Below, one piece after another: positions 6,260-18,227 of a stretch of 25,711 nucleotides of DNA. A program made the position numbers and the translations under genes. The notes beneath the pieces are model-generated. The model saw nothing but the letters and a program-made list of their open reading frames with translations, was not told the origin of the DNA and ran no database searches. The stretch is from a virus, in the IMG/VR virus record IMGVR_UViG_3300035180_000310, positions 1-25,711 of that record. One strand, written 5' to 3'. How positions within the stretch are numbered: position 1 is the first letter of the stretch; each line of letters opens with the position of its first letter.

Positions 6260-6445
6260 ATGACTAAACAAGAAGTAATTGGGGTCATCGACTATATGTT
6301 GAATGACCCTAAACTAAGAACTTATATTTTAGAACAGCTATATTGGATTGCTTACTCTGATGGTAGAGACCATCAAGCTGGTCAGAAATTTAGTTCTTTA
6401 GTAACTAAAGAAATAAAAAAATCACTCAATTTACACAATAGATAG
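6260..6445 (+). CDS. hypothetical small helical protein
   Basis: 61 residues, unknown function, mostly helical. It starts after a GAGG ribosome site. Its first codons (MTKQE) and 16 bases around its start are identical to the start of the next gene (6502), although the rest differs. This may be a remnant of duplication or of recombination at the start regions. Confidence 0.6.
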   Translation: MTKQEVIGVIDYMLNDPKLRTYILEQLYWIAYSDGRDHQAGQKFSSLVTKEIKKSLNLHNR

Positions 6446-14582: not shown

Positions 14583-15667
14583 TAAGTGTATTTGAACCAA
14601 CAGAAATATCTCATCTCGAACAGCCAATGTTTTTAGGTGAAGGTGTAGATGTAGCTCGCTACGATATTATGAAATACCCTTGGATTGATAAGTTTACAGA
14701 ACGTCAATTAAGCTTCTTCTGGAGACCAGAAGAAGTTGATTTGACTAAGGATAAGTATGATTTCAGTAGACTAACTGAAGCAGAACAGCACATGTTTACT
14801 AGCAATCTTAAGTATCAAATTTTATTAGATTCAGTTCAAGGTAGAAGTCCTAATTTAGCTTTTTTACCTATTGTAAGTTTACCTGAACTAGAAACTTGGA
14901 TTGAAACATGGGCATTTAGTGAGACTATTCATAGTAGAAGTTATACTCATATTATTCGTAATGTGTACCCTAATCCTACTGAGGTACTTGATGAAATTAC
15001 ATCTATTAGTGAAATTTTAGAAAGAGCTGCTAGTGTTGGGGAAGAGTACGATTCATTGATTAAAATGAATCAAACATCTGAGATTGGTCCAATTAGATAT
15101 ATGTCACAAATATATAGAACTTTGTTCAGTGTGTATGCACTTGAAGCAGTTAGGTTCTATGTATCATTTGCTTGTTCATTTAGCTTTAATGAACGCTCTT
15201 TAATGGAAGGTAATTCTAAGATTATCACCCTTATTGCTAGGGATGAAAGTCTTCATATGAGTGCAGTTCAGAATATACTTACAACGCTTGCAAATGGCTC
15301 TGAAGGAGAATTGTGGGCTAGTGTGGCAAATGGTAACTCTACTTGGATTAAAACAACTATGGACGCTGTAATTAAGCAGGAAACTGCTTGGGCAGAGTAC
15401 TTATTTAGTAAAGGTTCAGTTCTAGGTCTTAATGCAGAAATTCTTACACAATATATCCGTTATATTGCAGATATTCGTATGAGAGCTATTGGTGTAAATA
15501 CAAATTATTCTGGAGATAAGAAAAAGAATCCTATTCCTTGGATTAACAAATACTTAAATTCAGACACAGTACAAGTAGCTCCTCAAGAGACAGAAATTGC
15601 CTCTTACCTTACAGGTGCAGTTGATAGTACAATCGACAGTTCGTTATTTGGAGGTATAAGTTTGTGA
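14579..15667 (+). CDS. nrdB: ribonucleotide reductase class Ia small subunit (R2)
   Basis: Holds the di-iron tyrosyl radical used by the large subunit to reduce ribonucleoside diphosphates. I chose the ATG at 14579, not 14573. It overlaps the previous stop (ATGA), has GGAT eight bases upstream, and brings residue numbers into register with E. coli R2: Asp84, Glu115, His118 and radical Tyr122 in SETIHSRSYTHI. The other ligands are Glu189 (ALEAVRFY), Glu223 and His226 (ARDESLH). The C-terminal radical-transfer Tyr is present (EIASYLTG). About 15 residues are missing between 150 and 185 compared with E. coli. Length is 362. Its last four bases overlap the nrdA start (GTGA). The order nrdB-nrdA is the reverse of the E. 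coli operon. Confidence 0.96.
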   Translation: MISVFEPTEISHLEQPMFLGEGVDVARYDIMKYPWIDKFTERQLSFFWRPEEVDLTKDKYDFSRLTEAEQHMFTSNLKYQILLDSVQGRSPNLAFLPIVSLPELETWIETWAFSETIHSRSYTHIIRNVYPNPTEVLDEITSISEILERAASVGEEYDSLIKMNQTSEIGPIRYMSQIYRTLFSVYALEAVRFYVSFACSFSFNERSLMEGNSKIITLIARDESLHMSAVQNILTTLANGSEGELWASVANGNSTWIKTTMDAVIKQETAWAEYLFSKGSVLGLNAEILTQYIRYIADIRMRAIGVNTNYSGDKKKNPIPWINKYLNSDTVQVAPQETEIASYLTGAVDSTIDSSLFGGISL

Positions 15668-17901
15668 GAATTAATGTATTAAAAAGAAGTGGTGAATTAG
15701 AGCCATTAGACATTAAAAAGATTGAAAATGTACTTTCATGGGCAGCAGAAGGTTTAGATGTATCTGTATCTGAAGTTGCTTTAAAAGCACATATTCAGTT
15801 AACTGATGGTATTAGTACTGATACTATTCATGAGCTATTAATTAAATCAGCAGCTGACTTGATTAGTGCTCAAGAACCTGATTATCAGTATATGGCATCT
15901 AAGCTAGTAATGATGGCTCTAAGAAAACGTATATACAATAGCAATAATCCAGACTACTTTACTAATGTAGTTAAATCTAATGTAGAGCTAGGTAAATATG
16001 ATCCAGAAATCCTAGAACTATATAGTGTAGAAGAGTTAAATGAGTTAGCTGATTACATAGATTATGATAGAGATTTTCTATTTAGCTATGCTGCAACTAT
16101 TCAATTGCTTACTAAATATTTAGTACAAGATCGTGTTACAGGTCAACATTATGAAACGCCACAAGCAGCTTACATGATGATTGCTGCAACATTATTTGGT
16201 AAGTATCCTAAAGCTACTAGAATGGCCTATGTTAAATCTTTTTATGATGCAGTATCACTTCATAAGATTAGCTTACCAACGCCTATTATGGGCGGTTTAA
16301 GAACTCCTACACGTCAATTTAGTTCATGTGTCCTAATTGAAGCAGATGATTCTCTGAAGTCAATTAATGCTACAGCAGCAGCTATTATTAACTATATCTC
16401 TCAAAAGGCAGGTATAGGTCTTAATGTAGGACGTATTCGTACTGAAGGATCTAAGATCCGTAATGGTGATGCTAGACATACTGGCGTAATTCCATTCATG
16501 AAACACTTCCATTCAGCTGTTAAAAGCTGTTCACAGGGAGCTATTCGTGGTGGTAGTGCTACTATGTTCTACCCATTATGGCGTTTAGATATTATGGACT
16601 TACTAGTTCTTAAAAATAATAGAGGTACTGAAGAAACTCGTATTCGAGGTAGTGATTATGGTGTACAGCTAAATAAATTGATGTATCAACGTCTAATCAC
16701 AGATGGGGTTATTACTCTATTTAGTCCTAGCGATGTTCCTGGATTATATGATGCTTTCTTCCAAGATCAAGATGAGTTTGAACGCTTATATGTACAGTAT
16801 GAGAATGATAAGACTATTCGTAAGAATGTAGTTAAAGCTTCAACTTTATTCGCTACACTTATGCAAGAACGCGCTCAAACAGGACGTATTTACATTCAAA
16901 ACGTAGATCATTGTAATAATAATAGTGCATTTATTGCTGAAGTAGCTCCAATTAGACAATCTAATCTTTGTATGGAAATTACTCTTCCTACTAACCCAAT
17001 GGGTACAGAAAATGAAGAGATTGCTCTATGTACACTAGCAGCAATTAACTTAGGTGCTATTGATGAATTAGCTGAACTAGAACATCTATCTAATTTATTA
17101 GTTAGAGGTTTAGATGCATTACTAGACTACCAAGATTATCCTGAAGAAGCAGCTTTAAAAGCTAAATCTCGTAGATCATTAGGTATTGGTGTAACTAACT
17201 TTGCTTACTATTTAGCGAAGAATGGTGTTTACTATTCAAATGGTTCCGCTAATAACTTAGTACATAGAACTATGGAAGCACTTCAGTACTATCTTTTGAA
17301 AGCTAGTAATGAATTAGCTTTTGAAGTAGGTGCTTGTGAATATTATTCTCATACATCATACTCAAAAGGTATTCTACCTATTGATCGATATAAGAAAGAT
17401 GTAGATACTATTCATACACAAGAACTATTGCTAGATTGGGAATTACTTCGTAGAAATATTGCAGCTTATGGCTTACGTAATTCTACTGTAACTTCTCAAA
17501 TGCCTTGTGAAACTAGTTCTGCAGTTACTAACTCAACTAATGGCATAGAGCCACCTAGAGGCTTAGTATCTGTTAAAGCTAGTAAATCTGGAGCATATAA
17601 TCAGGTAGTACCAGATGTAGGTAATGTACATTATGAACTACTATGGGATATTCCTGATAATACTGGTTATCTAGAAATTGTTGCTATTATGCAAAAATTT
17701 ATAGATCAATCAATTTCTGCTAATACAAATTATGATCCATCAAAATTTGATGCAGGAAAAGTATCTATGAATGTCCTACTTCAAGATTTGATTACTGCTT
17801 ATAAACTCGGCATTAAAACTCTCTATTATCATAATACTCGTGATGGCAATAATCAGGATAGTGATGATGATGGTTGTGCTGGCGGAGCATGTAAACTGTG
17901 A
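15664..17901 (+). CDS. nrdA: ribonucleotide reductase class Ia large subunit (R1)
   Basis: 745 residues, complete, close to E. coli NrdA (761). The GTG start overlaps the nrdB stop. Residues 1-90 form an ATP-cone (VLKRSGELEPLDIKKIENVL), so dATP/ATP control of overall activity is expected. The active site has Cys222 (FSSCVLIE), Asn434, Cys436 and Glu438 (SNLCMEI), and Cys456 (ALCTLAAINLG). A YY pair in TLYYHNTRDG serves radical transfer. The C-terminal shuttle cysteines Cys738 and Cys743 are in the tail GCAGGACKL. All catalytic parts are intact. No glutaredoxin or thioredoxin gene is visible in the window, so re-reduction probably relies on the host or on genes elsewhere. The non-coding RNA candidate begins right after its stop. 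Confidence 0.97.
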   Translation: MRINVLKRSGELEPLDIKKIENVLSWAAEGLDVSVSEVALKAHIQLTDGISTDTIHELLIKSAADLISAQEPDYQYMASKLVMMALRKRIYNSNNPDYFTNVVKSNVELGKYDPEILELYSVEELNELADYIDYDRDFLFSYAATIQLLTKYLVQDRVTGQHYETPQAAYMMIAATLFGKYPKATRMAYVKSFYDAVSLHKISLPTPIMGGLRTPTRQFSSCVLIEADDSLKSINATAAAIINYISQKAGIGLNVGRIRTEGSKIRNGDARHTGVIPFMKHFHSAVKSCSQGAIRGGSATMFYPLWRLDIMDLLVLKNNRGTEETRIRGSDYGVQLNKLMYQRLITDGVITLFSPSDVPGLYDAFFQDQDEFERLYVQYENDKTIRKNVVKASTLFATLMQERAQTGRIYIQNVDHCNNNSAFIAEVAPIRQSNLCMEITLPTNPMGTENEEIALCTLAAINLGAIDELAELEHLSNLLVRGLDALLDYQDYPEEAALKAKSRRSLGIGVTNFAYYLAKNGVYYSNGSANNLVHRTMEALQYYLLKASNELAFEVGACEYYSHTSYSKGILPIDRYKKDVDTIHTQELLLDWELLRRNIAAYGLRNSTVTSQMPCETSSAVTNSTNGIEPPRGLVSVKASKSGAYNQVVPDVGNVHYELLWDIPDNTGYLEIVAIMQKFIDQSISANTNYDPSKFDAGKVSMNVLLQDLITAYKLGIKTLYYHNTRDGNNQDSDDDGCAGGACKL

Positions 17902-17909
17902 GTATAAAC

Positions 17910-18034
17910 ACTTATCTACAATACATAGATTACTATGGTGTCAGTAAGGTAGCAGCAGGGATCGTACCCCTGGACAGACTGGAATGAGAATGGGTCGAGA
18001 CGGCAGTGAACTCCTTAGCCAGTAGTAGATAAGT
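17910..18034 (+). ncRNA. candidate structured RNA of unknown family, about 125 nt
   Basis: A perfect 10-bp closing helix joins ACTTATCTAC (17910-17919) to GTAGATAAGT (18025-18034). Inside, bases 17940-18024 are 46/85 G+C (54%) in a genome near one third GC, a classic sign of a structured RNA in AT-rich DNA. Possible inner helices are CATAG/CTATG (17924-17928/17933-17937), CAGGG/CCCTG (17956-17960/17968-17972), TAAGG/CCTTA (17945-17949/18013-18017) and ACTGG/CCAGT (17978-17982/18019-18023). The last two would cross and form a pseudoknot, or be alternatives. I match it to no family: not a tRNA, tmRNA, 6S or RNase P core, and no obvious known ribozyme or group I intron core. It is probably transcribed with nrdA. 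Confidence 0.6.
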
Positions 18035-18040
18035 ATTCCA

Positions 18041-18079
18041 ACTATGGATTAAATAGTCCTAGCTATGGGTTAAATAGCT
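18041..18079 (+). repeat. two tandem sister hairpins with near-identical GGRTTAA loops
   Basis: Hairpin 1 has stem ACTAT/ATAGT (18041-18045/18053-18057) and loop GGATTAA. Hairpin 2 has stem AGCTAT/ATAGCT (18061-18066/18074-18079) and loop GGGTTAA. The units are about 20 bases apart, align along their length, and keep pairing where the stem bases differ. They lie just after the structured RNA candidate. They look like paired protein- or RNA-binding sites. Confidence 0.6.
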
Positions 18080-18093
18080 TTGCTCCAACCGTT

Positions 18094-18120
18094 TGCTAGT
18101 TTAGGTTTATCAAACTAGCA
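18094..18120 (+). other. 9-bp perfect hairpin, possible weak terminator or processing site
   Basis: TGCTAGTTT (18094-18102) pairs with AAACTAGCA (18112-18120) around a nine-base loop. Only a broken T-rich stretch follows (TCTAATTTATCCCTTT), so termination would be weak. Placed 30 bases before the tRNA, it could also be a stop for the nrdA transcript or a cleavage site that frees the tRNA. Confidence 0.45.
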
Positions 18121-18150
18121 TCTAATTTATCCCTTTAGTTTAATTACGAT

Positions 18151-18227
18151 GCGCTTATAGCTCAATTGGATAGAGCATTGGTCTTCTACACCACTGGTTG
18201 AGGGTTCGACTCCTTCTAAGCGCACCA
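18151..18227 (+). tRNA. tRNA-Arg (anticodon UCU), CCA encoded
   Basis: 77 bases folding as a complete cloverleaf. The acceptor is GCGCTTA/TAAGCGC (7 bp), the D-stem GCTC/GAGC, the anticodon stem TTGGT/ACCAC and the loop CTTCTAC with anticodon TCT at 18185-18187. The variable loop has five bases, the T-stem is GAGGG/CCTTC with loop TTCGACT, the discriminator is A, and CCA is encoded. It reads AGA, a common Arg codon in these AT-rich genes and a rare one in many proteobacteria, so it probably aids phage translation. Small oddities are a T-C mismatch at 27-43 and C rather than A at position 38. The minus-strand frame across it is an artefact of antisense tRNA sequence. Confidence 0.95.

Follow-up and report, generated by a model that had tools for sequence, protein, structure and literature searches.

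The surroundings of phage tRNA genes carry large RNAs of unknown purpose. In the 25.7 kb stretch of DNA analysed here (the window), the 249-base gap between the end of nrdA (17901) and the start of a tRNA-Arg gene (18151) contains an RNA-like domain. Is this domain an RNA in its own right, and if so, of what kind? The window is a fragment of an N4-like phage, with genes for a single-subunit RNA polymerase, an N4-type primase, DNA polymerase A, a Sak4-like protein, Thy1, nrdA and nrdB. The best reading of the domain is that it is probably a distinct non-coding, structured RNA.

The nrdA–tRNA gap and its RNA-like domain

The locus has the following features, all on the plus strand.

15664–17901: nrdA, the upstream gene (Pfam Ribonuc_red_lgC)
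17910–18034: the domain (core), probably a conserved non-coding RNA, marked by conservation in relatives, no Rfam match and the top GC patch
17910–17919: closing helix P1, 5' strand ACUUAUCUAC, exact reverse complement of 18025–18034
17924–17937: predicted hairpin H1, CAUAG-AUUA-CUAUG, pair probabilities 0.92–0.98
17956–17972: predicted hairpin H2, CAGGG-AUCGUAC-CCCUG, pair probabilities about 0.93
17978–18023: predicted helix H3, ACUGG (17978–17982) with CCAGU (18019–18023), and its loop, pair probabilities 0.89–0.95
18025–18034: closing helix P1, 3' strand GUAGAUAAGU, exact reverse complement of 17910–17919
18095–18119: hairpin GCUAGUUU-loop-AAACUAGC, kept in all tRNA-bearing relatives (sequence comparison)
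18151–18227: tRNA-Arg(TCT), the downstream gene (ARAGORN, Rfam)

An earlier note, made from the letters of the window, described a perfect 10-bp closing helix around a GC-rich interior with no open frame, and all three descriptions hold. Specifically, ACTTATCTAC (17910–17919) and GTAGATAAGT (18025–18034) are exact reverse complements with 105 bases between them. These 105 bases take in most of the richest 85 bases of the window (17936–18020), which have 55.3% GC against 32.3% for the window; the second-ranked 85-base stretch reaches 50.6%, and the third is the tRNA. In the core, no stop-free run exceeds 33 codons, the longest lying on the minus strand. Reading frames are interrupted in all copies of the domain and none is shared between copies, leaving no conserved open frame by which the domain could be identified as a protein gene or gene remnant. 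The tRNA or decayed-gene hit named in the earlier note as fatal to its proposal is also absent, with ARAGORN and cmscan calling a tRNA only at 18151–18227.

The window on its own gives little sign of a fold. Eleven perfect 10-bp inverted repeats within 130 bases are present, where about 10 are expected at the composition of the window, and the P1 helix alone does not exceed chance. Folding-energy z-scores are −0.87 for 17902–18045, −1.2 for the core and −1.1 for the antisense strand of the core; thermodynamic stability was dropped as evidence for the domain because the energy lies only about one standard deviation below shuffles. The composition of the domain is unusual, yet composition is not structure. 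Because helix and folding energy are at chance level, the case for the domain rests on conservation in relatives.

Copies of the domain in other N4-like phages

Close relatives were chosen by NrdA (L001–L007, L022, L039 and L040), and the nrdA–tRNA site was compared in L001–L007, L039 and L040. At this site the domain is present in some close relatives and absent in others. L001 and L002 have it at the same locus, L003, L004, L006 and L007 lack it but share the tRNA and the small repeats, and in L005, L039 and L040 nrdA is followed by a different gene. The domain is thus not essential, since close relatives with the same tRNA lack it. At the site of the domain, L003, L004 and L007 carry a 103-nt tRNA-like sequence (6312–6414) with a long insertion in the anticodon region, which scores 37 bits against Rfam tRNA and is not called by ARAGORN.

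When three separate stretches of the domain were used as scan patterns, L054 and L064 emerged in addition to L001 and L002. Both are other N4-like phages, in which the domain lies upstream of the primase gene, after a DNA ligase OB-domain gene in L064 and before a gp49-family gene in L054. Their primases are only 23–25% identical to that of the window, whereas the domain is about 94–96% identical; across L001/L002, L064 and L054 its identity is 94–98%. Such close agreement at two unrelated loci of distantly related phages indicates that the domain has been transferred, both from phage to phage and from one locus to another.

The domain is known in four distinct copies only. Over 747 kb of phage loci, its covariance model returned these four and no others, an exact 21-mer and 19-mer from the domain had no match in bacterial genomes, DNA similarity to annotated phages and plasmids stayed at chance level, and the neighbouring 122-aa protein, used as a query, led to no relatives. 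L063 and L065 (one 18-mer match) and L052, L053 and L055 (one 17-mer match) were rejected as carriers, the matches lying in unrelated sequence.

A DNA-level element, for example a recombination or packaging site or the end of a mobile element with the inverted repeat as binding site, would combine a terminal inverted repeat with transfer between loci. It is a very unlikely explanation, in that the whole interior is conserved and not the ends alone, no transposase is linked to the domain, and the block conserved between L001 and L064 runs about 150 bases past the inverted repeat.

The helices inside the domain can be followed through its copies. H1 is invariant in the full-length relatives, H2 and H3 in all four copies, and P1 in L001 and L064 has lost its outermost A-U pair and kept the inner 9 bp. 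H1, H2, H3 and the inner nine pairs of P1 have no substitution, and the only known relatives, at 94–98% identity, are too alike to reveal covariation within the domain. All six interior differences among the window, L001 and L064 fall outside the four predicted helices, a placement that supports the helices and is suggestive only. The inner pseudoknot proposed in the earlier note fares less evenly. By inspection, UAAGG (17945–17949) can pair with CCUUA (18013–18017) in a helix that would cross ACUGG/CCAGU, but L064 loses one pair of this candidate through a T-to-C change at position 17945.

Between the window and L001, the core is identical at 122 of 125 positions (97.6%), the fourfold-degenerate sites of nrdA at 233 of 282, the spacer at 50 of 57 and tRNA-Arg at 61 of 76. 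The core has changed less than the fourfold sites (p 7e-6) and less than tRNA-Arg (p 5e-5). On these sequence comparisons, selection or recent recombinational replacement could each account for the low divergence of the core.

L001 has about 190 more non-coding bases upstream of the domain, a region that alone is not unusual (z −0.7). Upstream of the N4-like primase gene of L064 is a 921-nt non-coding region (305–1225) with two copies of the ACG motif described below. Its predicted folding lies at z −5.3 to −5.6 against shuffles (single-sequence energies), with predicted long-range helices of 16, 11 and 9 pairs, which makes it a candidate large structured RNA. L001 and L064 share 295 bases at 94% and the window has only the last 146, so the window appears to hold the downstream domain of a larger RNA-bearing segment. 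The proposal of a distinct small RNA thus stands in part: the domain is non-coding, belongs to no Rfam family, is strongly conserved and has a second locus, but it is not free-standing, since in both L001 and L064 a longer non-coding region includes it as one of its domains.

The upstream part seen in L001 and L064 is missing from the window copy, which could thus be a remnant. On this account, a non-functional leftover of a larger L064-type non-coding RNA was brought to the nrdA–tRNA site by recombination, in line with the missing upstream part of the shared 295 bases and with a site that is empty in several relatives. However, the window copy has not decayed, with 3 changes in 125 positions against 49 in 282 at fourfold sites relative to L001, and its P1 is one pair longer than in L001 or L064. 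We consider a leftover rather improbable.

The nrdA–tRNA gap shows no terminator or clear promoter, which makes read-through transcription from nrdA into the tRNA likely. The domain could instead be a cis-acting element of the nrdA–tRNA–DNA polymerase operon that is never a separate RNA; it might, for instance, stabilise nrdA mRNA from its 3' side, serve as a processing site or mediate antitermination. In favour of this, its flanking genes run in the same direction, the gap has neither a terminator nor a strong promoter, and in L064 and L054 too the domain precedes genes. The genes that follow differ by context, however, and several relatives lack the domain in an otherwise unchanged operon; we regard a cis-acting element as unlikely.

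Pseudoknot repeats and the ACG motif

Small pseudoknot repeats adjoin these non-coding segments. Directly 3' of the domain, the window has two CCCAGCUAUGGGUUAAAUAGC-like copies on the plus strand.

18037–18057, plus strand: pseudoknot repeat copy 1, UCCA-ACUA-UGGA-UUAAA-UAGU, with compensatory changes in both stems relative to other copies
18058–18078, plus strand: pseudoknot repeat copy 2, CCUA-GCUA-UGGG-UUAAA-UAGC, with compensatory changes

Read as an H-type pseudoknot (NCCA/UGGN plus NCUA/UAGN), the repeats have 98.6% of cells paired. In four cells both sides have changed. The covariation score is reached by 6 of 500 shuffles and collapses when the partner is slid. Among the related phage records searched, the pattern is confined to the flanks of these non-coding segments: L006 has three tandem copies without the domain, and L001 has one copy before its RNA and two after it.

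The pseudoknot word GCTATGGGTTAAATAGC also occurs behind GGTGATCC in gut Firmicutes phages. L066–L082, Dorea phage DO134P1 (L228) and MT838081 (L229) carry GGTGATCC, 6–7 bases and a possible H-type pseudoknot, which appears as TCCAGCTATGGGTTAAATAGC and as by-eye variants with other stem letters, lies between genes and has no Rfam entry. In two relatives there, annotated or deposited, the pseudoknot seems by eye to persist with other letters. The element may resemble the repeats of the window yet be separate, and it is not counted as evidence for the domain.

The longer non-coding regions of L001 and L064 that hold the domain also contain a motif supported by covariation. This ACG motif reads ACG, a variable stem, then GCYGG-AURACGUAA-CCRGC. 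Its hairpin, GCNGGATRACGTAACCNGC, is found in the non-coding regions of L001, L064 and L054 and is absent from the window.

L001, 6356–6390: ACG motif
L064, 788–822 and 1132–1165: ACG motif, two copies
L054: ACG motif, also present

A scan of IMG/VR with the GCNGGATRACGTAACCNGC pattern gave at least 120 loci (contigs L107–L222, more than 100). The N/N pair, in 116 copies among the matches listed, is C:G in 77, T:A in 31, T:G in 4 and mismatched in 4. Directly before the GCNGGATRACGTAACCNGC hairpin is a stem-loop of variable sequence, and before the stem-loop is ACG. ACG precedes a stem of at least 4 bp abutting the hairpin in 44 of 57 non-redundant loci, and it was not required in their selection; the ACG–stem arrangement is observed in 49 of 59 loci, against a mean of 10.5 of 59 with shuffled upstream sequence. 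Among 25 members, both sides have changed in 31 cells, and not one shuffle in 500 attains the covariation score. These members were picked for the stem, which makes the result partly circular for stem 1 and leaves the N/N pair and the ACG count unaffected. ACG could pair with CGU of the loop, but the letters of this candidate pairing are invariant.

Where flanking genes could be called, the motif is mostly intergenic and on the sense strand. In two annotated phages, whose sequence is related to one upstream group, it lies beside a repressor gene and near the start of an early operon. Rfam gave no hit to the motif in 27 motif loci, and its sequence was not met within a limited literature search. 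HK022 putRNA, a short two-stem phage RNA in early operons (PMC9378689), is loosely like the motif found beside the relatives of the domain; it was rejected as the identity of the motif after a search of HK022 26–32 kb at up to 3 mismatches found no sequence match. Following the domain into its relatives has thus uncovered a widespread, strongly covarying phage RNA motif that Rfam 15 lacks, and this motif may be the larger find.

Known phage RNAs and a proposed role

Consistent with the view that the domain matches no known family, Rfam 15 has no match in the nrdA–tRNA gap even at E 10. Neither the GOLLD nor the ROOL model reaches gathering score in the window, L001, L003, L006, L007, L054 or L064, and the matches up to E 10 for window 17880–18160 and L064 290–1240 include neither of them.

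GOLLD is a phage and prophage non-coding RNA of more than 800 nt, often near tRNAs, with a conserved 3' region and a variable 5' region; ROOL, found near tRNAs in phages, is a pseudoknotted RNA with no known partner (PMC12286853). The domain resembles both as a phage RNA near a tRNA, with tRNA-Arg following 116 nt downstream in the window and about 100 nt downstream in L001; it further resembles GOLLD in that the L064 region holding it spans 921 nt, and ROOL in the pseudoknots. It differs from GOLLD in having no Rfam match in the window, L001 or L064 and from ROOL, which is much longer, in having no Rfam match to the domain; as had been supposed, the window copy (only about 125 nt) is shorter than either. 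ARAGORN finds no tRNA in L064 and L054, where the GOLLD- or ROOL-like location is accordingly lacking.

HDV-like theta ribozymes are small pseudoknotted phage RNAs within 5 nt of tRNAs (PMC10879173). The domain shares with them small size, pseudoknots and a nearby phage tRNA, and is set apart by position and by Rfam. As theta ribozymes are known neighbours of phage tRNAs, the domain might be a self-cleaving ribozyme or an intron remnant. We consider this highly improbable: tRNA-associated theta ribozymes lie no more than 5 nt from the tRNA (PMC10879173), whereas the domain ends at 18034, 116 nt short of the tRNA at 18151, and no Rfam ribozyme or intron family matches even at E 10. The suggestion that the RNA is catalytic is without support. 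The domain is assigned to no known RNA family.

The model that we favour, tentatively and at slightly less than even odds, is that the domain is an RNA part exchanged horizontally among N4-like phages within RNA cassettes. The domain would be transcribed on the plus strand within an nrdA–RNA–tRNA-Arg read-through transcript and would fold behind closing helix P1. It is probably released from this transcript, set free by RNase P and other host nucleases as they process the tRNA. The two pseudoknots would then shield the 3' side of the released domain, which, during infection, would bind a partner or serve as a scaffold in trans. Gain or loss of the cassette could proceed by recombination between pseudoknot repeats. 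A broader and more doubtful proposal is that phages have a so far undescribed class of long non-coding RNAs that carry the ACG motif in pseudoknotted form, a motif spread through contigs from many kinds of phage; the domain would be a part that can be detached from such RNAs, and their domains would be traded as cassettes between pseudoknot repeats. If the domain is indeed a mobile, near-invariant and compact RNA, it would be a tractable starting point in the search for the partner of large phage RNAs.

Elsewhere in the window, the 87 bases after the RNA polymerase gene (1644–1730) have very strong predicted folding (z −6.35) and are possibly a terminator hairpin.
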